Source of the DNA: a virus | Reading direction: 5' to 3' (one strand) | Length of the DNA stretch: 43,181 bases | IMG/VR virus record: IMGVR_UViG_3300025430_000045 | Coordinates: 1-43,181 of that record | Shown here: positions 1 through 28,998 of the stretch, one piece after another | Position numbering within the stretch: the stretch's first letter is position 1 | Layout: each line of letters begins with the position of its first letter | Position numbers and translations under genes: made by a program | The notes under the pieces: model-generated | Databases searched by the model: none | Seen by the model: only the letters and a program-made list of their open reading frames with translations | What the model was told of the DNA's origin: nothing

Positions 1-150
1 GAACAATGGACGGATGGGGATATCTTAGAAATGCTTTCAGAGAATCAATATGACTTACCTAAGACCCTTACCAGCATCTACATGAACATCACTGATACAT
101 CCTACAAACACCAACGGGAATACGATCCCGATAATTACAGAGGTATCTAG
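1..150 (+). CDS. Hypothetical protein, 5' end cut off by the window
   Basis: An open frame runs from base 1 to a TAG at 148-150 and gives 49 residues, starting EQWTDGDILEML and ending DNYRGI. The true start is outside the window. The composition is hydrophilic and acidic and no family is recognised. The last base of the stop codon is also the first base of the hammerhead ribozyme stem I, so self-cleavage would leave this gene on the upstream RNA fragment, with a structured 3' end directly after its stop. Coding status rests on the open frame, the absence of a competing frame and the tight fit to the ribozyme. Confidence 0.6.
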   Translation, partial: EQWTDGDILEMLSENQYDLPKTLTSIYMNITDTSYKHQREYDPDNYRGI

Positions 151-197
151 TCAAACTGATGAGCCTTCAATAGGCGAAACCCTTCGGGGTCTTTGAC
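150..197 (+). ncRNA. Type I hammerhead ribozyme (copy 1)
   Basis: All invariant parts are visible. Stem I pairs GTCAAA (150-155) with TTTGAC (192-197), 6 of 6. The core CTGATGA is at 156-162. Stem II is G163-C175, C164-G174, C165-G173 with a 7-nt loop. GAAA is at 176-179. Stem III is A179-T190, C180-G189, C181-G188, C182-G187, closed by a stable UUCG tetraloop (183-186). C191 is the C17 equivalent, so cleavage is predicted between 191 and 192. Stem I is the open helix, which makes it type I. The cut would leave a 26-nt leader before the ATG at 218. No obvious loop-loop tertiary contact was assigned, so the cleavage rate cannot be judged. Confidence 0.93.
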
Positions 198-200
198 AAC

Positions 201-211
201 ACTGCTAGGAG
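201..211 (+). promoter_or_regulatory. Recurring ACTGCTAGGAG ribosome-binding leader, copy 1
   Basis: ACTGCTAGGAG lies just 3' of the ribozyme and six bases before the ATG at 218. The AGGAG part is a Shine-Dalgarno sequence, but the ACTGCT extension goes beyond it and recurs before other genes (610-621, 2216-2226, minus 7100-7110, and related forms at 8456-8466 and minus 17302-17314). Confidence 0.7.
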
Positions 212-217
212 ATAACG

Positions 218-412
218 ATGCAACCATCACTACTCAAGAAGATAGCTAAGGGAGAGTTCTTTAAGCTAAAGGGCACTGAGACTTCCCCTGTTTGGGTCTG
301 CGACTACTACTGCCGTTCTTCCCGTCAATACTGGGTTCATAAGTTTGACGATATGAATCATGGGAAGTTCATCAGGGGTAATCGTGTTGTTTTTACTGGT
401 TTTACTTTCTAA
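218..412 (+). CDS. Small conserved phage protein, unknown function
   Basis: 64 residues, starting MQPSLLKKIAKGEFFKLK and ending RVVFTGFTF. The ATG follows AGGAG by six bases. The pattern KGEFFKLKGTE...VWV..YYCRSSRQY...KFDDMNHGKFI...VVFTGFTF resembles a family of short proteins common in phage early regions, known only as hypothetical. It is probably a small beta-rich domain. It is the first gene after ribozyme copy 1, so its mRNA would have a 5' hydroxyl end created by the ribozyme. The function is unknown and no catalytic motif is seen. Confidence 0.75.
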   Translation: MQPSLLKKIAKGEFFKLKGTETSPVWVCDYYCRSSRQYWVHKFDDMNHGKFIRGNRVVFTGFTF

Positions 413-423
413 GGAGATTGATT

Positions 424-555
424 ATGTTTGGAGTAATTGCCTGTAGTGATCCTAAGTTCCCATACGCTATTGAGGATGAGAATGGAGAGATCATGGCACT
501 GTTTGCGTATATGGACGAAGCCTTGAAGGTAGCTGAGTTCTTGAATCGGTCTTGA
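424..555 (+). CDS. Hypothetical 43-residue protein
   Basis: The frame runs from ATG at 424 to TGA at 553-555: MFGVIACSDPKFPYAIEDEN then GEIMALFAYMDEALKVAEFL then NRS. AAGGAG at 412-417 is well placed. A short strand-rich start followed by an amphipathic helix (DEALKVAEFLN) gives a coherent mini-domain of the kind seen in small phage early proteins. It starts 11 bases after the stop of the preceding gene, in the same direction, so the two are probably co-translated. No function is recognised. Confidence 0.7.
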   Translation: MFGVIACSDPKFPYAIEDENGEIMALFAYMDEALKVAEFLNRS

Positions 556-560
556 GTGCT

Positions 561-594
561 GTAATCCTGATGCCCTTCGGGGTATCGGGATTGC
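561..594 (+). ncRNA. Long UUCG-capped hairpin upstream of the gene at 629
   Basis: GTAATCCTGATGCCC (561-575) pairs with 580-594 over 15 base pairs, including three G-T wobbles, with TTCG (576-579) as the loop. The wobbles make it much better as RNA from the plus strand. No T-run follows, so it is not a standard terminator. A second, mutually exclusive hairpin pairs GATTGCC (589-595) with GGTAATC (600-606). It occupies the same place as the two ribozymes: after a stop codon and just before the ACTGCTAGGAG leader. It contains CTGATG but not a full hammerhead core. Confidence 0.6.
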
Positions 595-609
595 CATTCG
601 GTAATCATT

Positions 610-621
610 AACTGCTAGGAG
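610..621 (+). promoter_or_regulatory. Recurring AACTGCTAGGAG ribosome-binding leader, copy 2
   Basis: AACTGCTAGGAG, followed seven bases later by a TTG start at 629. It follows the UUCG hairpin just as copies 1 and 3 follow hammerhead ribozymes. Confidence 0.65.
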
Positions 622-628
622 AAATAAA

Positions 629-988
629 TTGGAAACACAAACCAACACAATCGATTTAACCCAGTTCTTTGGCACTACCCAGTATTGGAGGACTCAGCCT
701 ATGTTTGCACCGAAGCTGGTTCATACCGATGGGGTTCAATACTTTGCTGATACTGCTGGGGCTTACTGGTTCTTGGATATCGTGGCTACTGAGGGCTATG
801 AGCTCCATAAGAAGAATCCCTTTATGTCTATCAACATGGAAGTTGCTGATGGTAAAGCCGTTATTGCTTTTGATGATGGGGATTTGAATACTTTGAAGAT
901 TAAGAAGATCGCTATGACTGATTGCCCTTCGGGCATTTATACCTTCTTCTTGGCCGACAATGTCTTTATGTTGACTTCGGAGTATTGA
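629..988 (+). CDS. DUF6876-like small phage protein
   Basis: 119 residues, starting METQTNTIDLTQFFGTTQYW. The start codon is TTG at 629-631, chosen because AGGAGA sits seven bases upstream and no ATG is present before residue 25. The pattern LTQFFGT.QYWR...LVHTDGVQYFADTAGAYWFLDIVA matches my memory of the DUF6876 family, small phage and plasmid proteins with a conserved DGVQY...GAYWL.D core. The function is unknown. A TGCCC-TTC-GGGCA inverted repeat lies within the coding region near 925-937. It ends two bases before the next gene, so translational coupling is likely. The family assignment is from memory and unsearched. Confidence 0.75.
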   Translation: METQTNTIDLTQFFGTTQYWRTQPMFAPKLVHTDGVQYFADTAGAYWFLDIVATEGYELHKKNPFMSINMEVADGKAVIAFDDGDLNTLKIKKIAMTDCPSGIYTFFLADNVFMLTSEY

Positions 989-990
989 TC

Positions 991-1296
991 GTGGCAGAGC
1001 TCATTGATAGCATGACAGTGAGCTCTCCTCTGATGCTGGAGGGGAGCTGGGGGCAGAGAGATTTGGGGACTCATGAGTCTACCTTAGAGCTCTACTACCA
1101 CAAAGACTGCACTGGGTTCATTGAATGGGATATTCCTGAGCTGGACTTGTTTGAGCATATTGGTCTGTGGTTTTCCATTGATCGGGATGGCAAACGGAGT
1201 CTGGTCGAATATGATGGGGTCATGTCATTGAATGACCATGCGATTGCCCTACTTCGTAAGAATGGGGTTTATGTTAATTCTGAGGAGTTTGAATAA
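991..1296 (+). CDS. Hypothetical protein with GTG start
   Basis: 101 residues. The frame is open further upstream, but the upstream part overlaps the previous gene. The GTG at 991 has GGAG about eight bases before it and begins two bases after the previous stop, so the protein starts V(M)AELIDSMTVSSPLMLEG. It is acidic, with a mixed alpha/beta look (STLELYYHKDCTGFIEWDIPELD, then LWFSIDRDGKRSLVEYDGV). The sequence suggests a small phage early protein. No function is recognised. The stop overlaps the next ATG as TAATG. Confidence 0.7.
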   Translation: MAELIDSMTVSSPLMLEGSWGQRDLGTHESTLELYYHKDCTGFIEWDIPELDLFEHIGLWFSIDRDGKRSLVEYDGVMSLNDHAIALLRKNGVYVNSEEFE

Positions 1297-1433
1297 TGGA
1301 TACTTTGAAAGAGCTGTATCAGTTGATGACTGTTGTATGGTCTGAGCTGTTGTCCTTCGGACTGATATTGGCGGGCTTTTATGCCATATGGTTAGTAGTT
1401 TCTGCAATTCTCAAATGGGGGAGAGTCATATGA
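1296..1433 (+). CDS. Small single-span membrane protein
   Basis: 45 residues: MDTLKELYQLMTVVWSELLS then FGLILAGFYAIWLVVSAILK then WGRVI. Residues about 18-39 form one strong hydrophobic segment ending in Lys/Arg, consistent with a one-pass inner membrane protein. The start overlaps the preceding stop as TAATG and its stop overlaps the next start as ATGA, so it fits exactly into the coupled series. Position and size fit small membrane proteins of phage early regions. The actual role is unknown. Confidence 0.7.
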   Translation: MDTLKELYQLMTVVWSELLSFGLILAGFYAIWLVVSAILKWGRVI

Positions 1434-1597
1434 TCTGTGAACATAGTGGTGATAGCTGGTGGGAATACGATGCTCAAGGTATCCCGTTGGCAAGGGTCTG
1501 CGATAAATGCGTGGATGCAGTCTTGAGCAAATATCGGCCTGAGATTTTGTCGGGCTATTCACAATCTGATGTAGATGAATCAATCGAGGAGCAATAA
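1430..1597 (+). CDS. Small Cys-rich, probably zinc-binding protein
   Basis: 55 residues, starting MICEHSGDSWWEYDAQGIPL. The ATG at 1430 was chosen over an upstream in-frame start because GGGGGAG lies six bases before it and it couples to the previous gene by ATGA. C3 and H5, then C-D-K-C near residues 23-26, could bind one zinc ion. The WWEYDA.GIPL.RVCDKC...LSKYRPEIL pattern recurs in hypothetical proteins of many phages. Function unknown; the zinc site is an inference. Confidence 0.75.
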   Translation: MICEHSGDSWWEYDAQGIPLARVCDKCVDAVLSKYRPEILSGYSQSDVDESIEEQ

Positions 1598-1598
1598 C

Positions 1599-1808
1599 AT
1601 GGGAGTTGAATCAAACCTATATACGACTGTTCAAGAAATGTATTTTGATCTAATGGACTTAGGGAAAACCAATTATTTGAAAGGGATGCCAGTAGCTGGT
1701 TTTCAGGAGTTTGACAATATGCGTGATTTTATTGACGAACAGATAAGTAAATTACATTACCTTGAGAATCATATGAGAGCATTGTTTAACATTACTGAGG
1801 AGCAATAA
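1599..1808 (+). CDS. Hypothetical helical protein
   Basis: 69 residues, starting MGVESNLYTTVQEMYFDLMD. The ATG at 1599 follows GAGGAG by six bases. An in-frame start at 1575 is possible but lies inside the preceding gene. The predicted content is mainly helix (VQEMYFDLMDLGKTNYLKG, then MRDFIDEQISKLHYLENHMRALF), suggesting a small helical bundle. No family is recognised. The stop is followed one base later by the next ATG. Confidence 0.65.
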   Translation: MGVESNLYTTVQEMYFDLMDLGKTNYLKGMPVAGFQEFDNMRDFIDEQISKLHYLENHMRALFNITEEQ

Positions 1809-1809
1809 C

Positions 1810-2172
1810 ATGGGATGGACTGGAATGACTCCGCCTTATCATGGCGATAAAAAACGCTGGTTGGCAGACGAATTTAAACAAGTTGGTGAAATTGGCACTA
1901 ACCCGTCTTTTGAGTTGACTGATATCAGCATCAAGGGACGGGAAGCATACGGCATTCTGAATGTCGTTAAAGCCGATGGCACTAAGACTGGGTTTGGCAT
2001 GGTCATATTGCTTGAGTGTTCTGCAAAAGAATGGGTCATGAAAGAAATGACAGAAGATATGATGCCTTACTACTTCAACGCACCAAAGAAGCTGATACAT
2101 AAGCTGGATGAGCTTTACCCAGCATTGAATGACAATGCCCGTAAATGGCGTGAGAAGTGCCTATCAAACTGA
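1810..2172 (+). CDS. DUF6927-like phage protein
   Basis: 120 residues, starting MGWTGMTPPYHGDKKRWLAD. The opening MGWTG, a middle strand block ending in VILLECSAKEWVMKEMTEDMMPYYFNAP and a C-terminal ...L.ALN.NA.KWREKC segment match the pattern I associate with DUF6927, a phage family of unknown function. The start has GAGGAG at 1797-1802. The gene's final codons TCA AAC TGA TGA are also bases of hammerhead copy 2: the stop codon lies inside the invariant CTGATGA core. The ribozyme would therefore be occupied by terminating ribosomes, which may link translation and cleavage. Confidence 0.75.
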   Translation: MGWTGMTPPYHGDKKRWLADEFKQVGEIGTNPSFELTDISIKGREAYGILNVVKADGTKTGFGMVILLECSAKEWVMKEMTEDMMPYYFNAPKKLIHKLDELYPALNDNARKWREKCLSN

Positions 2173-2213
2173 TGAGTCTGTAAGGACGAAACTGGAGTGA
2201 TCCAGTCTTTGAT
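2163..2213 (+). ncRNA. Type I hammerhead ribozyme (copy 2)
   Basis: Stem I pairs ATCAAA (2163-2168) with TTTGAT (2208-2213). The core CTGATGA is at 2169-2175. Stem II is G2176-C2187, T2177-A2186, C2178-G2185 and a T2179-G2184 wobble, capped by the GNRA loop GTAA (2180-2183). GAAA is at 2188-2191. Stem III is six pairs, A2191-T2206 to A2196-T2201, capped by the GNRA loop GTGA (2197-2200). C2207 is the C17 equivalent, so cleavage is predicted between 2207 and 2208. The product starts 25 nt before the ATG at 2233. Stems II and III differ in sequence from copy 1 while the core is identical, which supports selection on structure. Confidence 0.93.
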
Positions 2214-2215
2214 TA

Positions 2216-2226
2216 ACTGCTAGGAG
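2216..2226 (+). promoter_or_regulatory. Recurring ACTGCTAGGAG ribosome-binding leader, copy 3
   Basis: ACTGCTAGGAG directly 3' of ribozyme copy 2 and six bases before the ATG at 2233. The spacing is nearly the same as in copy 1. Confidence 0.7.
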
Positions 2227-2232
2227 ATTGAA

Positions 2233-2412
2233 ATGATGTTCAAACTGGAAATACGCACTGATAACGCAGTGTATGAAGAATCACTGTATGACGAATTGGT
2301 TGCCAATTTAGAGCTGGTCTCAAATATGATTGATTCTCAGCAAAAATCGGGGACTATCAGGGATACCAATGGTAATCGTGTTGGGCAGTTTTACATGACT
2401 GAGGAGGAGTGA
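2233..2412 (+). CDS. Hypothetical acidic protein
   Basis: 59 residues, starting MMFKLEIRTDNAVYEESLYD and ending GQFYMTEEE. Two adjacent ATG codons are possible (2233 or 2236); the AGGAG leader suits both. The N-terminal strand FKLEIRT, a helical middle (YDELVANLELVSNMIDSQQ) and a C-terminal strand resemble a family of short phage proteins beginning MFKL.I.T.N.AF, known only as hypothetical. It is the first gene downstream of ribozyme copy 2. Confidence 0.7.
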   Translation: MMFKLEIRTDNAVYEESLYDELVANLELVSNMIDSQQKSGTIRDTNGNRVGQFYMTEEE

Positions 2413-2414
2413 TC

Positions 2415-2855
2415 ATGGGTTTAGATATGTATTTGACCGCAAAGCAATATTTGTGGAATCACAAAGAAGAAGAGCAACATTTACGCAAGGATGTGGCGAA
2501 GGTGTTGGGGGTTACGGCCTACGATGCCAAGTCGGTATCCTTTGATGTGATGTATTGGAGAAAGTGCAACGCTATCCATAATTGGTTTGTCGATAATGTT
2601 CAGGAGGGACTTGATGACTGCGGGGAATACTGGGTCGATTCTGCCCAGTTGGACGAGCTGGTTGCACTATGCAACGAAGCATTGGTAAATCGTGATGAAG
2701 ATATTCTTAAGCCAGTATCGGGATTTTTTTTCGGCAGCACTGAAAAGGATGAATACTACTGGCAGAGCATTACTGAGACTAGGGACAGATTGTCGGAGAT
2801 TTTGACAAACCCGTCTGCCGTTAACTGGGACTTTTACTACCAGTCAAGCTGGTAA
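2415..2855 (+). CDS. Conserved phage protein, MGLDMYL family, unknown function
   Basis: 146 residues, starting MGLDMYLTAKQYLWNHKEEE. The ATG at 2415 follows GGAGGAG. The opening MGLDMYL, YWRKCNAIHNWFVDNVQ and D-C-GEYWVD...LDELVALCNEAL form a signature seen in many phage and bacterial hypothetical proteins. The conserved H, C and W residues could be catalytic or structural, but I know of no assigned activity. An FFFGSTEKDEYYW segment follows at about residues 100-115. It lies in the plus-strand early block. Confidence 0.8.
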   Translation: MGLDMYLTAKQYLWNHKEEEQHLRKDVAKVLGVTAYDAKSVSFDVMYWRKCNAIHNWFVDNVQEGLDDCGEYWVDSAQLDELVALCNEALVNRDEDILKPVSGFFFGSTEKDEYYWQSITETRDRLSEILTNPSAVNWDFYYQSSW

Positions 2856-2865
2856 GGATTTGACA

Positions 2866-3060
2866 ATGAAAACAATATATATCGTGAAATCGTATGGTGC
2901 ATATAACGGCTATACAAACCTTATAGCATTTGATTCTGAATCAAAAGCAGAAGCATATGCAAAAAAGATAGAGAGCCATATATCGAAAGATATTTTGGAC
3001 AGTGGTGATGAGTTTGTTGAAGTTGAGCCACTTACATTGGAGGAGTTTAGTCATGCCTAA
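2866..3060 (+). CDS. Hypothetical protein
   Basis: 64 residues, starting MKTIYIVKSYGAYNGYTNLI. The ATG at 2866 follows AAGGA by seven bases. The short alpha/beta pattern (strand TIYIVKSY, strand NLIAFDS, helix ESKAEAYAKKIESHI, strand EFVEVEPL) is typical of small phage early proteins with a YIV.S...Y...AF.S...A..... core. The function is unknown. The end overlaps the next gene by eight bases. Confidence 0.7.
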   Translation: MKTIYIVKSYGAYNGYTNLIAFDSESKAEAYAKKIESHISKDILDSGDEFVEVEPLTLEEFSHA

Positions 3061-3238
3061 ATGGATTATCAGGGCAAAGACCAATGTGATGTATGAGAAG
3101 GTGATAGAAGCCGACAGTGAAGCCGATGCTTGGGAAAAGGGTAAAGCCATACCTGAGTGCGACTTTCACTGTGTCGGTGAATATGACCATGTTGTTTACG
3201 ATGTTGAACAAACTGATGACGATGAGGAAATCGAATGA
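3053..3238 (+). CDS. Hypothetical acidic protein
   Basis: 61 residues, starting MPKWIIRAKTNVMYEKVIEA. The ATG at 3053 has GGAG eight bases upstream and overlaps the preceding gene. The strand-helix-strand fold (WIIRAKTNVMYEKVIEADSEADAWEKG) resembles short phage proteins. The tail is strongly acidic (QTDDDEEIE). A CTGATGA string at 3213-3219 encodes part of this tail and is not a ribozyme. The stop overlaps the next start as ATGA. Confidence 0.7.
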   Translation: MPKWIIRAKTNVMYEKVIEADSEADAWEKGKAIPECDFHCVGEYDHVVYDVEQTDDDEEIE

Positions 3239-3408
3239 ATATTGCAAGAGTAGAAAAATTGCTTGTAGACACTTACAAGTTTTTAAATGATGAGATGCAA
3301 GACGAATATCCACTGGTTGATTTGGATGAAGCTATCGGCAATATTGCAGAAGCATTGGCAATAGTGCAAGGGGATCATGGGGCTTTTGACAATCAGGAGA
3401 TAGATTGA
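3235..3408 (+). CDS. Hypothetical helical protein
   Basis: 57 residues: MNIARVEKLLVDTYKFLNDE then MQDEYPLVDLDEAIGNIAEA then LAIVQGDHGAFDNQEID. Mostly amphipathic helix and acidic. It is coupled to the preceding gene by ATGA and to the next by TGATG, which is the main support for it being real. No family is recognised. Confidence 0.65.
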   Translation: MNIARVEKLLVDTYKFLNDEMQDEYPLVDLDEAIGNIAEALAIVQGDHGAFDNQEID

Positions 3409-3632
3409 TGTTTGAAGTTCAACATTACACGCTATGCGATGGATGGATAAATTGCTGGAGTGAAGAGAATGAGGACGGGGTAATGATCCCGTCCATTTAT
3501 AGAACATACAAAGAAGCCTTAGATGCCCTCAATGAATTTCTTGAGGATGAGCTCATGGAATACAACGCTGGCAATATTGATTCTTTGTATGAATTGGATG
3601 AATTTAGAATAATGGAGTTAGATCATGCCTAA
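3408..3632 (+). CDS. Hypothetical protein
   Basis: 74 residues, starting MFEVQHYTLCDGWINCWSEE. The ATG overlaps the previous stop as TGATG, with AGGAGA upstream. The composition resembles small phage proteins with the pattern YTLCDGWINCW...(D/G)....P..Y.T..EA..AL.EFL.D, which recur in phage early regions as hypotheticals. An acidic helix (YKEALDALNEFLEDELMEYN) is followed by a short C-terminal strand. Function unknown. Confidence 0.7.
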   Translation: MFEVQHYTLCDGWINCWSEENEDGVMIPSIYRTYKEALDALNEFLEDELMEYNAGNIDSLYELDEFRIMELDHA

Positions 3633-3852
3633 AAATTTAGTATTGTTTGGTGATATCGAGTTTGGGGACTTTTGCAAAGGAAGAGATACATTCCCCTGTG
3701 CAGTCATCCACGAAATTAAATGCCAGTTGCTGATGGACGAAACAGATGCCGATGATTTCATGGTCAAACATGGATATAGCGGTTACTTGATCCCAGCAGA
3801 ATTTAAAGGTGAAATTTATTTTTCTGAAGGATGGTCAAAATGGTTAGAGTAA
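3625..3852 (+). CDS. Hypothetical protein
   Basis: 75 residues, starting MPKNLVLFGDIEFGDFCKGR. GGAG lies upstream and the start overlaps the previous gene by eight bases. It is mainly beta with a short helix (METDADDFMVKHGY-like region). No known domain is seen. It ends TAATG into the next gene. Confidence 0.65.
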   Translation: MPKNLVLFGDIEFGDFCKGRDTFPCAVIHEIKCQLLMDETDADDFMVKHGYSGYLIPAEFKGEIYFSEGWSKWLE

Positions 3853-4001
3853 TGGACGATGACAACGAATATGTTCTTTGCGGGGATTCTTTAATGGTAA
3901 TTGATATCGAGAATCCAAAAGATTATTGCCAAGTTGATCAGAAAGAATTTTCTGAGTTTGAAGCATCTGTTCATAAATTTTTGATGGAGGTATCAACATG
4001 A
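3852..4001 (+). CDS. Hypothetical acidic micro-protein
   Basis: 49 residues: MDDDNEYVLCGDSLMVIDIE then NPKDYCQVDQKEFSEFEASV then HKFLMEVST. Support comes from exact coupling on both sides (TAATG in, ATGA out) and a coherent alpha/beta composition. An internal in-frame ATG at 3894 is an alternative start. No function is recognised. Confidence 0.6.
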   Translation: MDDDNEYVLCGDSLMVIDIENPKDYCQVDQKEFSEFEASVHKFLMEVST

Positions 4002-4159
4002 ATTGGAGACCAGTAGAATTGCAAGAAAATTATTGGATTATTCAGGATAAAAATAATTATGATGAATATGTAGATCATGTTGGCGATAACTTGGTTTTTG
4101 TAACAAAGAAAGAAGCATTGGAAAAAATAAAGGAGATTAACAATGAATCAAGCCGATAA
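3998..4159 (+). CDS. Hypothetical micro-protein
   Basis: 53 residues: MNWRPVELQENYWIIQDKNN then YDEYVDHVGDNLVFVTKKEA then LEKIKEINNESSR. ATGA-coupled to the preceding gene, with GGAGG before the start. It reads as two strands and a C-terminal helix. Its last 17 bases overlap the next gene. Unknown function. Confidence 0.6.
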   Translation: MNWRPVELQENYWIIQDKNNYDEYVDHVGDNLVFVTKKEALEKIKEINNESSR

Positions 4160-4310
4160 AGATGCCCAGCAATGGATGGAAGCCAATTCTAAATGGCAAC
4201 AGAAAAGATTGATTAGTGCCAAAGAATCAGGCCAGCAATACTACATTGATGAAACAGGCTATGTCATCATTGAGAAAGGACAGGATGAACCTAAGCAAGT
4301 GCAAGGGTAA
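4143..4310 (+). CDS. Hypothetical Gln-rich micro-protein
   Basis: 55 residues: MNQADKDAQQWMEANSKWQQ then KRLISAKESGQQYYIDETGY then VIIEKGQDEPKQVQG. AGGAG lies seven bases before the ATG at 4143. A charged N-terminal helix is followed by a short beta hairpin. Unknown function. It overlaps the start of the next gene by 26 bases. Confidence 0.65.
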   Translation: MNQADKDAQQWMEANSKWQQKRLISAKESGQQYYIDETGYVIIEKGQDEPKQVQG

Positions 4311-4566
4311 AGTGCCAGTGTTTGTAGGGGGCGATGCCCCTTACAAGCTGGTGGACTTTCCCAGTCGTGAGAAGTTTGACATACTCTTTAAATCCAATAA
4401 TAAAACCCTACGGGAAAAATACTGGAATATCCTGAAGATGAGGGCAGAAGGTCATACGCTACAATCAGTGGGTAATACTTTTGTTCTTAATCGTGAAAGG
4501 ATCAGGCAGATTGAAGCTAGGTTTATAAGGAAAGTAGCAACCTCTTTAAATCCTGAGAAGCCTTGA
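4285..4566 (+). CDS. Sigma-70 region 4-like DNA-binding protein
   Basis: 93 residues from the ATG at 4285; the frame is open to 4216, but that part lies inside the preceding gene. Residues 58-84 (HTLQSVGNTFVLNRERIRQIEARFIRK) closely match the sigma-70 region 4 helix-turn-helix, which contacts the -35 element, including the signature RERIRQIE followed by R.L/V. The rest of a sigma factor (regions 2 and 3) is missing, so it is more likely a transcription regulator or co-factor than a full sigma. It is the last gene of the plus-strand early block and converges on the primase gene with 44 bases of tail overlap. Confidence 0.85.
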   Translation: MNLSKCKGKVPVFVGGDAPYKLVDFPSREKFDILFKSNNKTLREKYWNILKMRAEGHTLQSVGNTFVLNRERIRQIEARFIRKVATSLNPEKP

Positions 4567-5341
4567 AATTGCCGACTCTCATATGGTAGTCATTAAAATC
4601 CTCCCCAGTTGCTGGGGAGATCCAATACGGCTTTTGTGTCTTTTTGGCCACCATCTCTCCAACACCACTGCTATCGTTATCAGCGATAATCAGCCCCTTC
4701 CCGATGTTCCTTGCTATGAGCTCCATGTTGTTTGCGGAGAAGCAGATGTGGATCGTATAAGGGAGATTCATTTTGGTCATGATATCCCTGACACTGAGGC
4801 CAGTGGCATACCCTTCGCAGAATATTGCAGTGCCTCGTGTCCCAATCGTAAAAGTTGCCCCCTTGCTCGTCTGACCATGCAAGAACTTTTTGTTCCCCTC
4901 GTGGTCGATGAGCTGGCATCCCACCACAGAGCCCTGTATCCGCATGGGAATAACTAACAGTTTGTCGAGCCCTTTGACGAAGACATTTCCCTGTTCGTTT
5001 TTAAATCCCTTGCGTTCAAGGTATGGATGCGATTCCAAACTGCATTGAGACAAAATCCACTGTGCTTTTTCTGCTGCAGCCTGTGCCTCTTTTTTCCTTG
5101 AATCGTTTGACGAAGACATTTGTTTTTTGATTTCGGTCTTGCTGACACCTTCAGCAAACCAGGTGGCGGGTTTATCCATTGTTGCCCAGTTGATAGCCCA
5201 GCCGACATTGCCTAAGAATTTATATCTACCGTTTGTGGATCTTGGATGATCTTCTGTTGGGGTGGCTACCCATCTGTCCATGACAAGATTGTTATTCATA
5301 ATCAAGCCATGTTCTCTTGCGAAATTAACGAACTCCTGCAT
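4523..5341 (-). CDS. DNA primase, Toprim-type
   Basis: 272 residues. The Toprim hallmarks are present: the catalytic glutamate in FCEGYATGLSV (E176) and the D-x-D motif in LIIADNDSSGVGEM (D221, D223), followed by GEDFNDYH. The N-terminal half carries the hydrophobic core common in phage and plasmid primases of the DUF7146/Toprim_3 kind (YLERKGF...LLVIPMRI.G.VVGCQLID..G.K.FL.G). There is no zinc-binding domain of the DnaG type, so template recognition may be altered or supplied by a partner. The start overlaps the end of the helicase gene by 17 bases, implying a primase-helicase pair for phage replication. Confidence 0.85.
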   Translation of the reverse strand: MQEFVNFAREHGLIMNNNLVMDRWVATPTEDHPRSTNGRYKFLGNVGWAINWATMDKPATWFAEGVSKTEIKKQMSSSNDSRKKEAQAAAEKAQWILSQCSLESHPYLERKGFKNEQGNVFVKGLDKLLVIPMRIQGSVVGCQLIDHEGNKKFLHGQTSKGATFTIGTRGTAIFCEGYATGLSVRDIMTKMNLPYTIHICFSANNMELIARNIGKGLIIADNDSSGVGEMVAKKTQKPYWISPATGEDFNDYHMRVGNFKASQDLKRLLLSL

Positions 5342-9905: not shown

Positions 9906-10503
9906 ACCCGTTCATCCCAACTGGTTCTACAGCTACGTTGATATTCCTAATTTAGAAGTGATTAGGCAAGAGCTGATTGATTTGGTTAATGCTGGCGAAT
10001 CAGGAGTCAGGACAAATCCTACGGCCTATAACATTTCAAAAGAAGATGTCATAGAAAACTGCCAAGAAGTTGTGAAATATCTCAAAAAAATGCAGTTATT
10101 AGACAAGTTCGATAGATTGTTAATAACCAAGAAAACTACGGCAGAAGCTGATGGCATGGTTCATGTTGATACTTATGATCCTAAATACCTAACCCAGTCC
10201 TTGAATATTGGCCTGATTGATTATGAGGGTTCTTACACTTCATGGCATAGCACCGATATCAAAGTGTTACATGACACAGCCCAGTTCGGGATGGTTCCAG
10301 ACCGCAACTTTGCTTTTATTGAAGTAGAAAAGACAAAAGAAATATGCCGTCTTTATTACGATAAACGGGCTGCGCTGGTCAATACCACCATCTTGCACAA
10401 GGGCAACGCCCAACAGCCAAATAGAATCATCTGTGGATTTAGATTTGTCCCCGATCTATCTGACGAAGACATAAAAAGAATGGGGATAGTAAAGCTAGTA
10501 TGA
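9898..10503 (+). CDS. Putative 2-oxoglutarate/Fe(II)-dependent oxygenase-like protein
   Basis: 201 residues. The start is TTG at 9898, overlapping the previous gene by eight bases; no ATG is available before residue 65, so the start is uncertain. The core has H89-V-D91 (MVHVDTYDP), then H167 in NTTILHKGNA and R176 in NRIICGFRF. This H-x-D...H...R order is the iron and 2-oxoglutarate site of the double-stranded beta-helix oxygenases found in many phages. Possible substrates include nucleotides, proteins or lipopolysaccharide sugars. It converges on the sulfotransferase gene with a nine-base overlap. Confidence 0.6.
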   Translation: MYKPVHPNWFYSYVDIPNLEVIRQELIDLVNAGESGVRTNPTAYNISKEDVIENCQEVVKYLKKMQLLDKFDRLLITKKTTAEADGMVHVDTYDPKYLTQSLNIGLIDYEGSYTSWHSTDIKVLHDTAQFGMVPDRNFAFIEVEKTKEICRLYYDKRAALVNTTILHKGNAQQPNRIICGFRFVPDLSDEDIKRMGIVKLV

Positions 10504-11082
10504 GTATTTAAAGAAGTCTAGGTCATGCTCAAAGACCTTAGATATCTTTTTTATCTCTTTATCGGTGTAGTAGTCCTGGTAACGCCCTTGATCAATATGG
10601 TTTTCTTTACCCAAAGGCGTATAAATTCCTAATAAATCTTGAATAATCTTGAAATCTTCGTCTAAGGTTTCTAACCGAAGCAGAAAATTAACCCCGTTGG
10701 CTATCCATTCATATTGATTTGTGGCCGAGTCAAACCAGTGCATAGTCTTATAAGTCTCAAGCCGATCTACAAAAGTAGCAAAGTCAGGAAAGTCTTTATC
10801 TAGCCCATTCTTAGCCCGATAGTGCTTGCACCAGTCTGATTGCCCATCTCTGGCATATAAGTAGCCACTAACAACTCTGGCATACGGATTTCTAACTATG
10901 GCAAAGGTTAGCATAATAGGAAGATAACAGGCCATCTGGGTCAAGCTTTGGTGGTATTCCAAAAACATAACTTGCCCTAAATGATCCCGATGATTATGAA
11001 ACCACTTTAATACAGAATTGCCTGCATTTTTAGGGATATGGACGAAGGTCAGCCCATGAGCTGGTAAGTGAACGGCAGTCAT
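10495..11082 (-). CDS. Sulfotransferase family protein
   Basis: 195 residues. The PAPS-binding signatures are visible: 5'-phosphosulfate loop FVHIPKNAGNS (13-23) and 3'-phosphate motif FAIVRNPYARVVSGY (60-74, with R64 and S72). These match the carbohydrate sulfotransferase (Sulfotransfer_2) family, which moves sulfate from PAPS to a sugar or other acceptor. No signal peptide is seen, so it would act in the cytoplasm. In a phage it might modify host surface sugars or a virion component. Its start overlaps the stop of a small membrane protein gene by ATGA, so the two may act together. Confidence 0.85.
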   Translation of the reverse strand: MTAVHLPAHGLTFVHIPKNAGNSVLKWFHNHRDHLGQVMFLEYHQSLTQMACYLPIMLTFAIVRNPYARVVSGYLYARDGQSDWCKHYRAKNGLDKDFPDFATFVDRLETYKTMHWFDSATNQYEWIANGVNFLLRLETLDEDFKIIQDLLGIYTPLGKENHIDQGRYQDYYTDKEIKKISKVFEHDLDFFKYSY

Positions 11083-16062: not shown

Positions 16063-16940
16063 TGCTGCTCCTTATAGTCTTGATACTGTTTACACCACTT
16101 ATTAACGAGACAGTAACTCTCACAACGAGTACGTTCTCCCTTACGCTCCTCAATGTCATAGTTTTCCCCTAGATCAGCCAATGCTGATAAGGCCTTCTCA
16201 GGGGTGTCATATAACGAGTGAGCTCTCTTACCGCCAACCTTCTTAATGGCCCAAACAGCAGGCTTTTCCCACATTTCCTCTGGAGTACAATTGGGTAGGG
16301 ATCCAGCAGTTTCCAAGGCGAAGTCACATTCAGAATGTGCTGAGATGCGGGCTTTTATGAAATCCTCTCTCTCTTGTATCGACCATAAAGTGATGGGTAA
16401 CTCTACGATTGGAGCCTGTGGGTAACCCTCTTTCTCAGACTCCTTCTCTGACCAATTGCGTAGAAATGCAACAATACCTAAATCAGTTACGGGAACCTTT
16501 TTGACGTGCTCGACCAGCCATGCGTAAATATTTAACTGGTATTCCCAATCAATCTTCTCATTCATGACAGACCAGACACTGGTTACTTTGTAGTCTTTGA
16601 TTGTCATGCCGTTTGGATTGGGGATTTGTAAGTCAATAGCCCCACTAATGTTCCAGCCATCGAGCTCAGCGTGTAAGCGTTCTTCAACAATGTCGTGCTC
16701 TCCTTTGCCATGCTCGACTACATTGTGCATAGCAGAACCAAACAAAGCCCAGATCATTGAAGAAGCATCTTGCTCAATCTCTTCATCGTATTTCTTGGTC
16801 AAGCTAACGATCTTTGGGCTATTGATCAGCTGGGTAACTGACAGATGAGCCTTGCCCTTGTTGTAATGAGGGCGCTCCAAGACATTAATGATTGTCTGAG
16901 GAATATTAAACTTGTTGGTTAATTTCACGTTCTTTAGCAT
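16059..16940 (-). CDS. PD-(D/E)XK exonuclease, RecB/Cas4-like
   Basis: 293 residues. The motif GAIDLQIP (D103), then DYK (D116, K118), and YQLNIYAWL (Q135, Y139) form the RecB-type nuclease core. The C-terminus has C273, C277 and C283 (RCESYCLVNKWC), resembling the iron-sulfur cluster of Cas4/AddB-like nucleases; a fourth ligand is not obvious. It probably degrades one strand from double-strand ends to feed the Sak3 annealing protein. The ATG at 16940 lacks a clear Shine-Dalgarno; the GTG a few codons on is an alternative. Confidence 0.8.
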   Translation of the reverse strand: MLKNVKLTNKFNIPQTIINVLERPHYNKGKAHLSVTQLINSPKIVSLTKKYDEEIEQDASSMIWALFGSAMHNVVEHGKGEHDIVEERLHAELDGWNISGAIDLQIPNPNGMTIKDYKVTSVWSVMNEKIDWEYQLNIYAWLVEHVKKVPVTDLGIVAFLRNWSEKESEKEGYPQAPIVELPITLWSIQEREDFIKARISAHSECDFALETAGSLPNCTPEEMWEKPAVWAIKKVGGKRAHSLYDTPEKALSALADLGENYDIEERKGERTRCESYCLVNKWCKQYQDYKEQQ

Positions 16941-17384: not shown

Positions 17385-17735
17385 ATGAAAACTGTTGTTT
17401 TTCCTTGGCCACCCAAAGAACTCTCCCCCAATGCCGCTATTCACTGGGCTAAGAAGGCTAAATACAAAAAGATGTATCGGCAGGCTTGCTGGGCGTTGGC
17501 ATTAGAAGCCAAGCTAGGATGTGAGAAATTAGGGAAAATCCCTATGAAAATTACTTTTTACCCGCCAGATAGACGGCACAGGGATGCCGACAACATGGTT
17601 GCCTCAATTAAATCAGGGTTAGATGGGCTGGCAGATGCCCTGAAAGTCAATGACAAACAGTTTCTACCCACTTTCGTCTTCTCAGAAGAAGTAATGGGGA
17701 TGGTTAGAGTCCAGCTTTTAGACGGAACTGAATAG
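17385..17735 (+). CDS. rusA: RusA-like Holliday junction resolvase
   Basis: 116 residues from the ATG at 17385, which gives the usual family start (MKTVVFPWPPKELSPNAAIH). An in-frame ATG at 17349 would add 12 residues with no ribosome site, and a TATACT box lies at about 17336-17341, so it might be leaderless. RRHRDADNMVASIKSGLDGL (D67, D69, N70, K76) and D90 in LKVND match the RusA catalytic acidic residues. RusA dimers cut four-way junctions formed in recombination. The gene is alone on the plus strand and its end overlaps the giant gene by 32 bases. Confidence 0.88.
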   Translation: MKTVVFPWPPKELSPNAAIHWAKKAKYKKMYRQACWALALEAKLGCEKLGKIPMKITFYPPDRRHRDADNMVASIKSGLDGLADALKVNDKQFLPTFVFSEEVMGMVRVQLLDGTE

Positions 17736-20700
17736 TTTGCTCTAGGATGTTTTCTTTAATCCGCTTGTATTCGTCAATCTTTTGACGTTTTAACTCTGGG
17801 GTCATCTTAGAGGCTGGCAAGTCTTCGATTCTACGGATCTCGGCATTGACGTTGACCAGGCTCTGGTTAGCCGACTCAGTAAATCCATAGGCTGTAATCT
17901 CGCCTTTATGGTCATTAAACCATTCCTTGCCTTCTTCTTTATGGCCATGCTGCATCAGGTTCTTATAAGTCCCCATAGCCACGTCAGCACGTTGTTTAAG
18001 GTCATAGAATAGGTCTTCCCTACCTCTGCCCACCTCAGGGGCTACAAACGAGCCATAGAGGATATTATCCCTTTCCTGAGGGCTTGCCTTGTTACCATTA
18101 AATAGGTTAGATCCCCACATTGCAATAGCAGCCACAGAGCCACCCAGACCACGCATAATATGGTCAGCTTCCATAGGGTTCAAAAGACGGTGATCTGTTC
18201 CTAGACCGCTTACTGCACTCATCCACTTACCGAGCTCTGAAGTGCTGCCACGGAACTGTTTAAAGGCAGCCAGATTCTTCATACCTTCTGGGGTTACTGT
18301 GCCGCCTGTATAGAAGTCATGGTTAATTGCTATCTCAAGGAAAGGTTTGATACCCGTTGGGACTGGGGCAGACCCCAATGGGCCAAGTAACGCATCCACT
18401 GCACCTTCTTTGAGTACTTTCCGTAACCTTGCATTATCGATGGCATCTTTTGTCCCCTCCTTAGTGATCTTGTTATAAAGCAATTCAGGAATCGTTTTAA
18501 AGAAATAACTAGCCGATGTATGCATAGGAATTAACAATGAATGTTCATATCCAATAGTTTGCATCAATGACTTAGGAATGACGAAGTTGCGCATCTTGGT
18601 CTGGTCATCCATCTTCTTGTATTCATCATCGTCCCCTACCGCCATAGAGTAAAGCAGGCAAGTAGAGGCTAAGAGGCCAGCTGAAACAGCTAAACGGGTC
18701 ATGGCTTGTTGACGGTCAATACCACGAAGACCACCGCTAACGCTAGTTACTTTAGCGCCTGTTAGGGCTTCAATACCGCCAGCCACTGGTTCGGCCAAAG
18801 CTTGTGCTAAGACATCAATCTGCTGGGCATAGGCATTCATGAAGGCAATAGTACGATTAAGGAACTGGGCTGTTCTAGCATGACCCCGTTTATCAAAGTC
18901 AATAATGTTGGTTGCAGCCAAAATTGCTTTACGCTGATCCCCGCCAGTTTCTTTCATGACTTGAATATAGACTGCTCTACGCTGAGCAATATCAGAGGCA
19001 TCAGAGATCTTATCGAGGATGTTGGCTATCTTTGCCATCTTAGACTGGTTAATCAAACCAATCTCTTGTTTGTATTGGTGTTCAGCTGTTCTAGCGGCTG
19101 AGTGATATCCACCGATACCATGAGCCTTGAGCAACTCTACAATGTCATCATTTTGAGTTAAGCCTGCAGCAAACGAAGTAAACACACGGCCAAACAAGGC
19201 AGCTGGGTTCTTCACGCCAGATACCAGCGCAGCTGTAGGAGCATCCATAAATAGCTGTTTGATTTGGAATACGCCAGAGAAGGTAATCGATCTACGCAAG
19301 CCATTGGCAAAGAAAGCCAAGACTTCATTCATTGGAATCTGAATGTTCTCAATACCAATAACAGAACGAGCAACTAATGGGTCAGCAATCTGAATATGGA
19401 TTTTTCTGCCGTTGACCAGGATGCGGACAATCCCTTTAGAGAAGTCTTCCTTAGGAAATACTTTGAGCTTGCCCTTCTCATTACGGGTTCCATACTCTTG
19501 AGCAATACGGTTGGCTGCGTAGTTCTTAATTGAATTACGGGTAGTAACCATGACGTTATGCAACATATTGTCTACGATGTCATCAATATCAGCCGTTACC
19601 TTTCCTTCTTTGAAACGATGCTCTCTGGCTACGTTTCTAACACCTTTAGAGCCATAGATCGGTGCATGGGGATCAGTCTGCTCATCTTGAATACGCTGCC
19701 AAGGAACATAATCCTTGATAGCCCGAAGGGTATCAGCCCGCTTCTTGCTGATGATTCTAGAGTGCTCCATCATGTCAATCATGTTCTTATTGACAGCAGA
19801 CCAGTTTTTCATCATCTCTTTGAGCTCTGGATACTCTTTATCTAAATTAATAAAGTCTTCAATAGCCTCATCAGTCATGTTAACTTTTTGCAGAGCAATA
19901 GAGATATTCTTAAAGTCCTGCTGGGCTTCTTCAATTTCTGCCAATAGATTGAGCTGGCGATCAGGAGGAGTGCTTGGATCCAACTGCTCGGCTTTGAGGT
20001 TCTCCAGTTCTGCTTCACGGTCTAAGTATTCTTGGACGATGCTCTTAGAACGCTTAGCTTCAAAGTAAGCCTGAATGACATTCGCAGCCCGTTGCACACC
20101 AATCTGTTTTTCTAATTGATGTTTGATAGTCAGGATGTTGGCCATCGAGAACTTATCTTTGACGGCACGATACATCTGCAGATTAGGATCAAAATACAGT
20201 TTACCCAGCATAATGACTTGCGTACCAATACGGGCAGCCTTCAGAGCCTGGTTCATCGCTACAGAGGCAATAGCACGGCCTTCGCCATCTTCTAGCATAC
20301 GACCATAGCGATCTGCATCAGCTGCAGTCAAGCCAGCTGTAAAGTCAGTCATATTGACACGGGTAGTCAGCAGAGCACGGTCTACGTTACCAACCATGTT
20401 ATTGACAGCCATGCGGGGTGACTCCTTCATCTTGGCTACGGTATTCTTAGCATCCTGATATCCACCCAGCAATCGATCTACTACGGTGTTAGAAAGGTGG
20501 ATAGGGGCATCATTACGCTCATGTTTCGCCAATAGCTCATCGGTCTTTTCAACGCTAAACAAGAACTCTGTTTTATATTTACCAGAGCCGATGAAGTCAA
20601 CCAGCATCTTCTTATGGTCTCTTGGTGTTTCACCTTTGATTAAATCATTAAAGGTCTTGTAAATGGTATAAGTATTATCAAAGCCAAAGAGCTTTTTCAA

Positions 20701-23700
20701 AGCTTCCATGACTTGTTTGATAGCCATAGTAAAGCGATGCCAAGGAGTTCCTAGCTTAGCAGCCATCAGCTTCTCAGCATTGACCGCCCAGAACTCAGAA
20801 GGATTAATGTATTGATACATATCCTGAGAAGGCAGGATTCTCATAGCATGAGCAAAGTTCTCCTCTGAAGGCCTATCAACATAGTCAAGGATAGCCTTGA
20901 AATAATCTTGCGATTTGGTATCGGTGTTCTTCTTAATAGCCTTTTCTAAACTAGCTCTCCATGCTTCAATGAGATTTTGCTGGGTCTGCGGATCCATCAT
21001 CTGCTCTAATGTGTGCATGAGCTCATGGCGAATAGTGCCAGCATTGACAGCACCTGTCGTTTTATACAGGGTAATTAATCTATCGGCAGCATCAAACAGA
21101 CCAGCTGCAGTAAATCCTTGCTTATCTTTAAAGGATTTGACAGACATTTTCAAACCGCTAAGCAGGGCAGGCGTATTGTTATAAATGTATTTAATGACAT
21201 CTAGGACATCTTTACTGATGTTACCTTTATCATATTCATCTAAAGCCTTAGCCATGAAACGCTCTGGAGAATCTTTACGCTCTGCAGTTAACTTCTTATC
21301 TTCAGATAGCTCTTTGGCCAGTTGCTCAAGTTCAGTCAATCTCCGCTGAACATCAATACCAATTTCGCCTTTAATAATTTTGCGTTTTTCAGCAGTGATT
21401 CCACGTCTAGCTTCTGCGTGTTCTTTTACTTTATTCTCATGAATCCGAGCAATACGCTCCTTCATTTCCTTAGGAATAATAACGCTTGGAGTAACCGTTG
21501 CTTTTGGTGGAGCAAACATCTCTCTAGCTTTGTCTTTAGGGCTAGAGGCAATCAGGGTATCTCCACGGTCATTGAGGATGTAATCGATGGCTGCTTTAGC
21601 CTTGGACTCATCGTAGACTCGTGTGTACATGGTATTGCCAGACTTGTAGAAGTCACCAGTAAACTTTAATAGTCCAGGATCTAAGAAGAATGTGCCACCC
21701 TCTTTTTTGGAGCTGGGGACATTAAACTGATACTGGTTGCCATGCTTAGATATGCGTAATACATTGTCACCAGAAGTCACTACGCCATTGACTTCATTCA
21801 TAAACCGCATAGCATTATCAGCATTGGTAATACGAATAGGGGCTTCTCTTTGAGCTTTCTCAAAGTCATAGGTGCGTGGCATGAGAATACCTTGACCAGT
21901 CGTGCCATCAGATTTGGTGTAGGACATAATCTGTCCTTGATTCTTAACCGCATCAGAAGCAAAACCAGCCAAAATGTTACCTGTCACCATCCAGCGTTTC
22001 TCACGTCTGACATTAGATCCTTTATCAAATAGATCTATGAGACGGATCATCTCTGCTTTTTGAGTTTCTGGGTTATACCAGTTGATATAGTCTTCTTTAT
22101 TTAACTGGTATGTGCTACCAATCTGGGAGAAGTTAATCGTAATAGCTTTAGCATCACCGTTAGCCAAAGCAATATGCATCTTCCAGTCAGAGCCCGCAAC
22201 AGGATTGGCTGTCTTCTTTTTATTCTCTAAATCGGTTACAACACCATAGACAAATATGCCCTGATTGTTCTTAATAGAGATTGGTGTACCAATTGGATAG
22301 TTTCCTAAAATAGACTTAATATGCTGATACTGAAGGTTTAATTGACCTTTATAAGTATCAATCTTGACTTGGTCTGCACCCTTTTCTTGCAAAGCTGCCA
22401 GTTGAGCTTGCCCGTATTCAGCTGCTCGTTCTTTAACACCATTCAGTAATTCATTGGTGATTCTATAACGGTCTTCTGACATATTGCTGCCAACACGCTC
22501 AGCAATCTTTTCATTTACCTCTTGGGAAGAATAAGGTTTAACTGTCCGCTTGACATCGACCTTTTCCATATAAGCTGGCTGGGCAAACAAAGATTGCTCA
22601 CCTTTGTCTTCAGTAATCGGCTGGGAAGACAAAGTCTCAGCATCTAGGTCAGCAGCTTTAGCTTCAAGCTTGTTAGTTCCCATGCTATTTTCACGATCTA
22701 CTAAATCGTTATAGCGATCAATCAAGTCTTTGTAGATCTCTTCTTGTTCTTTAATTGGCAACATAGGAATGTAGCCAGTCAGTCTACGAATATCATCTTC
22801 TTTGGCATCGGTTGGATCTTCAATCAGATCAACTACCCGTTTACCACCAAGGGCTTCATGAACCTCAGGGTTATCCCGTAGATACTCTTGAGCAATCTGG
22901 CCACCGTAGTCATTCATAAAGTCTACGGCTCCTTCGGCTGTCACAGCAGACTTACGAGAAGCTGTTGTATTCGCATTTAAAGATGCCATCTTTTTGAGCA
23001 AGACCGCAGCTGGGCGCATCTCAGCTGGAATATCAGCCATCATCTGAGAGTAAGCTGGGGCTACCACTTGACCTGTTCTATGAACACGGCCTAGCATTTG
23101 CATATGGGTATCAATGTTCTTTTCTGGTTGAACAATGATCATATGGCGTTTGCGTTGATCTTTGAATTTGCTAGAGGCGTGTAAGGACAAGCCAGTAGAT
23201 CCAGCTTGGTTCAAAATAATGACATCGGCTTTTCCAGTATTAAATGCATCAACTGCATTAACCCGCTGCTTGATATTGGCAGAACGAGATGTCAGGATTG
23301 GAATGCCGCTTTCATAGTTCAAAGTTGAAGTACGACCAGTGATCTCTTCTGTCTTGTATCCAGCTTTACGCAGCTCATTGTGCATATAGTCGATTGGGGA
23401 TATTGGAGCAGAACCGAAGCCAGCATTCTCAATAAACTCTTGAATCTTTTTATATTGAGCTACCATGACTGGGCCCAGGTCTTCATCAGTCAGACGATAC
23501 TGTTGTTTGCCCTGTGGAGTCTTGATGGTAAGCATCCGCTGTTTTTCAAGATACTTTAGGTATAAGTCTTTGAACGACAGATTTACTGGATCTCCAACAT
23601 TGATTCCCATCTCATCGGCATAACTTTGCAAGAATGAGCCCATCGTATTGGAAACAGTCAATACAACCTTCTCGCCATTTTTAAGGCTTTCTATGGCGTG

Positions 23701-26700
23701 TTTGACAGAATCTTGGGCTTTCAAAGACAACAACATTTGGTCAATCAAGTTGTGCATGACTGAACCAAAGTTAGCCTGTTGAACCTGGGTCTTCTCGCCT
23801 TCCATGCTGGCTCTACCACCAGTCTGATCTAATGACTTTTGTAGATCTTTAACAGCCCCTTCTTTAGCACGGGAGAAAGCCAGAATGTCCCGCATAGAGG
23901 TAGCCATGTTTTCAGCCGTCTGCTTATCTACTTTAGTCTCTTGTGTCTGATAAGTAACACCAGCAAAAGTTCTTTCTCTGCGAATATATTGACCCACCTT
24001 AGTCAACATATTGGCAACGATCTGTTGCATTGGAATGCCACCTAGCTTAATTGCATCAGCCAGTTCATTGATGTTATTGACTGCTAACTTCATGTCTGTG
24101 CTGGAATATAAATCCATCACATCTGGGCGTTTAGCATAAGTAGCAGAAGAGAAGAATGTGCCGTAAGCGTTATCAACCAAGTCACGAACAAAAGCAGCAC
24201 GGCCAGTAGCCAAGCTCTTGCCTTCAGATTCGTTAGCCCGCTGTTCTTTGCTACGGGCTTGAGTTTCACCAGCACCGCCAGCATTATGACTTTCGTCAAA
24301 GATCATGTAATTGCCAAGGCCAAACTCTTTGATAAAGCGTTGACGTTCTGTTTCTTTACCCTTAACACTTTGCAGCTGGCTATAAGTTGTAAAGATTACC
24401 TTGTAATCGCCAAGGCTTTCTTTTTCTCGCATAGCCTTTAATATGTCATCTAAAGCTTTGCCAGACTTTGGAGCTCTTAACGTAAGATGATTTTCTGTTA
24501 CCTCATTACCAACTTTGCGGTATAAGGTATAAGGAATAGCTTCACTAGAGTTGGTAATTAAAATTCTTGGCTTGGCAGTGTCTAATCCAAGTTCTTTGGT
24601 CATGCCGATATCATCCATATCACGGATCATATCGGAGTAAAGGTTTGGCTTTTCAGTAACAAAGATAGGCACTTTGTCGTTTTCGATAGCATACTTAATC
24701 ATCGCAGCCACAACACGACCTTTACCAATACCTGTTTGGTCACCAATAATAAATCCTTTACCAGCCTCGGCATTACGAATGGCTAATGTTAAAGCATCAA
24801 CTTGCTCAGCTGAAAACTTCTCTTTAAGGGTCTCAGGATCCATGTGCAAGGCTTCTGCCACATATTCATCAACATTACCTACTTCGTCCTCTACCTTAGA
24901 GATTGATTCATCAATTGATTGAGCCATCGCTTTAGGAACTAATGTTCCAACAGAAGCTGCTTGTGAATGTGGCTCGTATCCTACTTGATGTCCTGTTTCA
25001 GTCTCTTGGCCTCTGCGGTCTGCTAATCCAGACTCGACTCGTGTACCTGAGACAACGCTAGGGCCACCCACTGGGCTAGGCTCGTTTCTTGCAGCGCCTT
25101 CTCTGCCACTGGGTCGCTTTTCTCCACCTTCGCTGGGAACGGGTCCTCGATTGCTGCCACGTTCAGGTTCGTTAGCAAATCCAGGTTGTCCTGCACTAAC
25201 GCCTGCCCCAGTTGGTTCGGGTGCTCCACGTTTGCTAGGCTCATTCTCAGACACGCCTCGTCTGCCGCCTTCTGCGGGTTTTGCTCCTTGAACACTAGGC
25301 TCACCACTCGGTCTGCCAGTGCGTTCACCCACTGCTTCTGGTTTAGGTTCCCCTGTGGGACGTTCACCGATGTCAGCTCTGGTGGGCACGACATTTTCTC
25401 TGGATACCACGCTAGGTTCATTTAACTTCTCCTTGAGTTCTTCGTATGTAGTAATTTGCTGTGGGAGTTCCGCAGCTGGTAAGGCTCTTTGTGACTGACC
25501 TTTTCCATCAATAACAATGACATCTACAGGGTAAGAAGCTCCCTGTTTACTGTACATATCCCCAGCTACGGAGAAATGGTCAACTACGTTGTAATCTTTG
25601 TAGAGGTTGTAATAAAACTCTCGTTTTGCTTTTTGACGATATCCTTCACGCCTTGCATCTTCGCCTTCAGCACGAACACCGCCTAAGATCAATACGGCTC
25701 TGCCATTAGCTGGCATATCATTTAAAGCTTTGTATGAAATAGCATGATCTATTTCTCTAGTGGTTTTTCCGTAAACATGAAATTCTTCGCCAATAGAACC
25801 AAAAGGAGGGTTGGCAATGACTACATCGACAGGATTTATGGATTTAAGAACTGCATTTTCATTAGATACTTTTGCACCTGGAAGCACCTTTTTGAGCATT
25901 TCATAGCGTGTGCTGTTTAATTCATTGGCAATTACATTTTTAGGATTGGCTGCCAGCAACAACATACCGTTACCAGCTGTTGGTTCGTACACGGTTGTCT
26001 TATCAGTAATGCCAGCTAGTTGTGATGCAATGTAAGCCAATGGAGCTGGGGTAGAGTAAGCCTGCTCACGAACACTGGTCGAAGACCGAACAGCCAGATT
26101 GGGTTGCTGATTGTATAAATTAACCAACCCTTGATAGATTTCTGCTGGCTTGCGATCTTTATGGGCAATCTTCTGTGCAGCAAGAACTACACCTACCTCT
26201 ACCGCTTCATCAGCCTGTTTAGCAGCCTGTGTACCAGCTTCAATCTTCTGGCCAGTCATATCAGAAATAAACTTACGGGCTTCTACGATAGTCCCAAAGC
26301 TGTTGCCATATAGAAAATGCTGGGAAATAGCTTCTGCAATCTTGAACTTGCCATCTGGTGTAGCTAAGTCAACCTTAACTTCAGCTTTAGGAGCTTCTTC
26401 TTCTAGCTCTTCTAATTTCTGAACACCAGCTACTTCAGCAATTGGGGTCGCTTGATCTGGATAGTTACCAGACATTCCAATATAAGCACCCTGTAAGTGA
26501 TTAAGGTTAATCTTGTCTGCTGCTTCTTTACCAAACTTCTCACGGATTGTGTCCCTGACAAACTTGGCTGCCGCCTTGAACTTGTGATAGCCCAGACGGA
26601 AAGCAGCATCCATTAAACGGGTAAGGATAGGCAGAAGACGTTGTTCGTCCTCTGGCATCATATTCATACGAGTATCTTTACTTGCCAACCATGCGAGGTC

Positions 26701-28968: not shown

Positions 28969-28998
28969 CAAATTTTATCCTTGAGTACTGCTATTTTA

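Follow-up and report, generated by a model that had tools for sequence, protein, structure and literature searches.

Type I hammerhead motifs at a nearly constant distance ahead of start codons and the probable processing of multi-gene tailed-phage transcripts

Active hammerhead ribozymes of bacteria have been found clustered around prophage genes, and a role in transcript processing has been proposed for them (PMC3088659). The set includes elements from the A. tumefaciens ardA region, C. scindens, A. caulinodans, PaP3, Bcep176, and HF1/HF2, with HHphage placed 13 nt ahead of the start of a helicase gene (Perreault et al. 2011; PMC3088659). Like the hammerheads described here, those elements are intergenic within phage or prophage gene arrays, often in several copies; however, the parts of that paper covered here describe neither a core stop codon nor a leader of fixed length, nor a family of this kind (PMC3088659). 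Two Rfam entries invite comparison. Hammerhead_1 (RF00163) shares its topology, core, and cleavage triplet with the element at the centre of this study (copy 2, below), but that element has a stem I of only 6 bp with an open end, finds its tertiary partner in the first base 3' of stem I, and is placed between a stop and a start codon. The RAGATH-1 hammerhead (RF03152) likewise combines a hammerhead core with a stem III hairpin, but its weak matches to our two copies (22.9 and 17.9 bits) fall far below its gathering score of 56.3. A search of the open-access literature found no report of the family, of the core stop codon, or of the fixed leader geometry. Set against that literature, multiple hammerheads per phage, lying between genes and with processing as their proposed function, are known; the large family, the fixed leader geometry, and the core stop are apparently new.

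The window analysed was a whole stretch of viral DNA of 43,181 nt (IMG/VR record IMGVR_UViG_3300025430_000045). Its minus strand carries a 3755-codon open reading frame (17704-28971), whose protein is very large for a phage record of 43 kb, and a gene (10495-11082) whose protein matches Pfam Sulfotransfer_2 at 40.4 bits against a cut-off of 22.

A first-pass annotation, made from the sequence alone, had called a type I hammerhead at 2163-2213 on the plus strand (copy 2). Every consensus position is present there, and the reading of the sequence, the RF00163 match, and a covariance model confirm a complete type I hammerhead by structural definition, with a consensus core and three stems. Stem I (6 bp) pairs ATCAAA (2163-2168) with TTTGAT (2208-2213) and is the open stem that makes the element type I; stem-loop II (GTCTGTAAGGAC, 2176-2187; 4 bp) and stem-loop III (ACTGGAGTGATCCAGT, 2191-2206; 6 bp) are both closed by loops. 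The core consists of CTGATGA (2169-2175) and GAA (2188-2190). C17 is position 2207, the last base of a GUC cleavage site; the predicted cut falls between C2207 and U2208. The stop codon of the upstream gene (TGA, 2170-2172) is, as the annotation had observed, the first TGA of C-TGA-TGA. Copy 1 (150-197, plus strand), recognized from sequence, fold, structural scan, and covariance model, follows the same design; its predicted cleavage site, 191/192, lies 26 nt ahead of the start of the gene at 218-412, and the last base of an upstream stop (TAG, 148-150) is also the first of its stem I. Both copies are complete for the CUGANGA ... GAA core, the A15.1-U16.1 pair, and H at position 17. The compensated stem I pairs that the annotation had pointed out between them (GTCAAA/TTTGAC versus ATCAAA/TTTGAT) are real on direct reading.

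In a structural scan, hammerheads of this quality occurred exactly twice in the window and not once in 10.4 Mb of sequence simulated under a Markov-1 model with the dinucleotide composition of the window; a chance origin of the complete consensus core is excluded. Minimum free energy folds of the flanked sequences include all three hammerhead stems of both copies. Folding energies were unremarkable relative to shuffled sequences (z of about -1 for the bare elements and about 0 with flanks), so the evidence for hammerheads is the motif together with covariation. In a search of 101 bases, RF00163 aligned its whole model to exactly 2163-2213 (28.1 bits, E 1.6e-5), below its gathering score of 34, and copy 2 is not claimed as a listed Rfam member. 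When the whole window was scanned with Rfam, only copy 1 surfaced, as a weak HH9 match; with scores under the cut-off, such elements would stay unannotated. Our own covariance model scored copy 2 at 72.3 bits, the exact sequence of copy 2 having been in its training set. Against known phages, blastn with window positions 1-5000 gave no match, and 2150-2250 gave a few weak matches covering <30% of the query.

The structural scan and the covariance model together recovered more than 100 distinct relatives in viral contigs, at one to four per contig. Our initial viral-contig pattern had returned mostly chance matches and was discarded. A pattern of core, GAAA, and the following Shine-Dalgarno context CTGCTAGGAG matched 71 stretches of viral contigs, CTGCTAGGAG thus being itself a selection criterion in that set; without the Shine-Dalgarno part, 85 matches were obtained. 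The core is invariant across the family except at position 7 (T, C, or A), which is unconstrained in active hammerheads, and at H17 (C or A). Many relatives without a Shine-Dalgarno sequence carry an A-rich leader; such leaders fit Bacteroidota hosts, which we infer for all but the elemo phages. One family member occurs in the cultured Flavobacterium phage elemoE, and 68 elemo records match the region. Pattern matches in bacterial genome contigs numbered 27, none of which folds as a hammerhead, and thus yielded no host or prophage link.

Several members have features of their own. In elemoE (MT497072), the hammerhead region lies on the minus strand at 16281-16432 and is overlapped on the opposite strand by an annotated plus-strand CDS, phanotate41 (16289-16396), which is probably spurious; a 5'-OH end is predicted at position 16309, 28 nt ahead of the annotated start at 16281, and the same record holds an unannotated 21-codon open reading frame with its TAG at -8 of the ribozyme core. 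A core variant, CTGATGAT, has one extra U before stem II and was observed in 14 of 68 distinct elements (L137, L141, L147, L150, L155, L157, L163, L176, and other contigs). Some hammerheads, orthologs of copy 2 among them, have a long stem III (L096:2365-2460, L166:3501-3598, L267:7032-7132, and, on the minus strand, L320 near 6331 and L389 near 9291) interrupted by a symmetric internal loop of two identical GAGWCCGCAAA strands, while the helices around it differ. Such a loop could bind a ligand or a protein, which would make these natural regulated hammerheads. The bare double GAGNCCGCAAA pattern occurs in viral contigs at near the chance rate by our own estimate, and the hammerhead-embedded cases alone were retained. 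Just past the equivalent of copy 1, contigs L133 and L228 carry a partial tandem duplication of leader and gene start in which CTGCTAGGAG marks the junction.

Selection on structure, which the annotation had drawn from the two copies of the window, is borne out by an alignment of 116 distinct relatives. In this alignment, which was fitted by the model and so leans towards structure, 99.6% of pairs are standard and 13 of 13 varying pairs are compensated, on both sides; the covariation score was 0.695, as compared to 0.147 for shuffled alignments and at most 0.110 with the structure slid. In an independent scan requiring only four stem I pairs, none of the 68 distinct elements lacked any of the six. 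Beyond the stems, the last base of loop II covaries with the base directly 3' of stem I (mutual information 0.675 against a shuffle maximum of 0.16, the shuffles taking no account of relatedness among sequences); the next two positions 3' of stem I do not covary with loop II. The predicted tertiary pair is A2183-U2214 in copy 2. Among 99 elements with loops of 4-5 nt, the pair, written with the base 3' of stem I first, is A-U in 72, U-A in 16, C-G in 2, and U-G in 2; window copy 1 carries the A-U version and copy 2 the U-A version. Where an independent flank has a base other than A directly 3' of stem I, the pair is made by all elements whose loop II is 4-5 nt long, and with several different stem I sequences; a group with 9-nt loops is an exception. 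As a possible partner, the base 5' of stem I was considered and rejected, given a mutual information of 0.50 versus 0.675 for the 3' base and mixed cases that follow the 3' base. Fast hammerheads need a contact between stem I and loop II, and the pair between loop II and the flank of stem I looks like that contact.

The gene downstream of copy 2 (P0002; 2233-2412, plus strand) encodes 59 aa of unassigned function. Cleavage would leave its mRNA a leader of 25 nt (2208-2232, predicted from sequence and family geometry), within which a Shine-Dalgarno sequence, AGGAG, lies at 2222-2226. Over independent flanks, the distance from predicted cleavage site to downstream start has a median of 26 nt (IQR 25-27). 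In the 40 clusters outside the pattern that contains the Shine-Dalgarno sequence, the median is 25 (IQR 22-27), with AGGAG in 14 of the 40 only. The downstream genes change and the distance stays, which indicates that the ribozyme is anchored to the downstream start and not to the upstream stop. The CTGCTAGGAG context was examined as a possible part of the ribozyme fold; it sits at a variable distance from stem I and also occurs without ribozymes, and was therefore taken as a ribosome-binding context. In these phages it also follows promoter-like sequences or leaders, so promoter and ribozyme may be alternative routes by which a gene obtains a short leader. Sigma-70-like sites in window positions 1-4600 numbered 2, as compared to 12.2 expected.

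The reading we favour, at a probability of about three in four, is that a self-cleaving hammerhead processes a multi-gene tailed-phage transcript, giving the downstream gene a short leader and leaving the upstream gene its stop codon. As the multi-gene transcript emerges, the hammerhead would fold into its three stems with the tertiary pair between loop II and the flank of stem I, and copy 2 would cut after C2207. The upstream gene would lie complete, stop codon included, on the 5' product, which would end in a 2',3'-cyclic phosphate; the 3' product would begin with a 5'-OH on UUUGAUUAACUGCUAGGAG and provide an unstructured leader of about 25 nt for the downstream gene. Such ends are standard for hammerheads. 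Between the upstream stop and the predicted new 3' end, 35 nt away, are the stem II and stem III hairpins, and because the 5' product would retain the stop, no non-stop message would be made. Given minimal space between genes and a core that itself supplies TGATGA, the upstream gene would run up to the ribozyme or, as here, into it. The sequences show the anatomy, the covariation, the conserved geometry, and the stop position; cleavage in vivo, the chemistry of the ends, and an effect on expression are inferred.

A second structured RNA occupies the same kind of position. Element 2 (553-622, plus strand), recognized from its fold, covariation, and relatives, is a two-hairpin RNA unrelated to the hammerhead and sits between a stop codon (TGA, 553-555) and the Shine-Dalgarno sequence of the gene at 629-988. 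Its long hairpin is AGUG-CUGUAAUCC...GGGAUUGC...CAUU; an alternative hairpin, GAUUGCC-AUUC-GGUAAUC, is followed by AUUAACUGCUAGGAG. Two helices that exclude each other are possible, so the element may switch. We counted 26 distinct versions ahead of the CTGCTAGGAG Shine-Dalgarno context, and the consensus folds of the two subtypes have 22 and 19 pairs, of which 8 and 2 are compensated. Element 2 has no Rfam match. It was considered as a decayed hammerhead and rejected, having neither core nor GAAA and possessing covarying helices of its own. Besides the window, it was located in L224 (2900-3000 and 5030-5130), L244, L188, L185, L148, and L242. At two orthologous gene starts (the families of window genes 2415-2855 and 629-988), a hammerhead in some phages corresponds to element 2 in others. 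A broader reading is that exchangeable RNA devices, hammerhead or element 2, set mRNA 5' ends at a fixed distance ahead of gene starts, element 2 then representing an undescribed self-cleaving or nuclease-processed class, and that cleavage at cores containing a stop is also tuned by terminating ribosomes. We regard this fuller scheme as possible but rather improbable.

The position of the upstream stop bears on the suggestion, made with the annotation, that the ribozyme is gated by translation: stem I and the core would be masked by any ribosome that terminates at the core TGA, and this would make cleavage dependent on translation of the upstream gene. The upstream gene (P0001; 1810-2172, plus strand; open reading frame with homologs) encodes 120 aa of unassigned function. 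Most homologs have 176-192 aa, such that about 60 C-terminal residues are missing from P0001; the loss is common to the window lineage and a 79%-identical relative. Wherever homologs of the protein are followed by a hammerhead, they all end TCA-AAC-TGA at the core TGA, in six lineages, that of the window and five more with 37-45% protein identity, which are unlike in their downstream gene and in stems II and III. Retention of the core stop in all hammerhead-bearing homologs implies, at the level of sequence comparison, that this gene family has long had the overlap. Both the hammerhead and the core stop are absent from the 79%-identical relative (L224/L233), which ends in TAA and carries another RNA element, and relatives at 58-61% have no element at the boundary and a longer C-terminus. 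A relative retaining the stop but not the core pairing, which the annotation held would speak against its claim, was not seen; the 79% relative lost both.

Gating would couple the upstream and downstream genes, is compatible with transcript processing, and draws on the core stop of the six lineages as well as on the frame of the shortened window protein, which still enters the core TGA. In the whole ribozyme family, the upstream stop falls within -26 to +1 in 69 of 79 independent flanks, mostly just upstream of the core, where the footprint of a terminating ribosome, given its size, would extend to stem I or the core. However, the stop position varies. It is inside the core in only 18 of the 79 flanks, about the expectation for a free reading frame: one frame of the core is TGATGA, a gene that enters in that frame is bound to stop, no special selection is needed, and as many as a third of genes that extend into the core would end there without it. 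Stops past the core are rare (6/79), and at least the one in L145 looks misassigned, with a TAG at -8. The constrained distance is the downstream one, and minimal gene spacing explains the closeness of the stops. The core stop thus holds as a trait of the upstream gene's own family but is not supported as a general principle, and gating we consider unlikely.

Less likely by far is a structured spacer that does not cleave and merely keeps the Shine-Dalgarno sequence free or protects RNA ends. Element 2, which is not known to cleave, does occupy the equivalent place in relatives, but a spacer has no need for an invariant catalytic core, A15.1-U16.1, C or A at position 17, or the pair between stem I and loop II. 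Excision of the RNA between paired hammerheads, with circularization by ligation or an RNA product to follow, is scarcely credible: two same-strand copies would release a 2.0-kb RNA with ligatable ends and several contigs carry 2-4 copies, but copy number varies from 1 to 4, ordinary genes lie between copies, each copy is positioned relative to the next start, and spliced or circular products of tandem bacterial hammerheads were sought in the earlier study and none detected (PMC3088659).

The exchange of hammerhead and element 2 suggests that the hammerhead's role is shared by a second class of RNA. For the favoured reading, processing of phage mRNA by the hammerhead, the constant geometry, with a cut about 25 nt before the start and the stop codon retained, turns the idea of ribozyme-processed phage mRNA into a precise prediction, one that can be addressed in a cultured phage-host pair, elemoE and Flavobacterium sp. 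BAL314.
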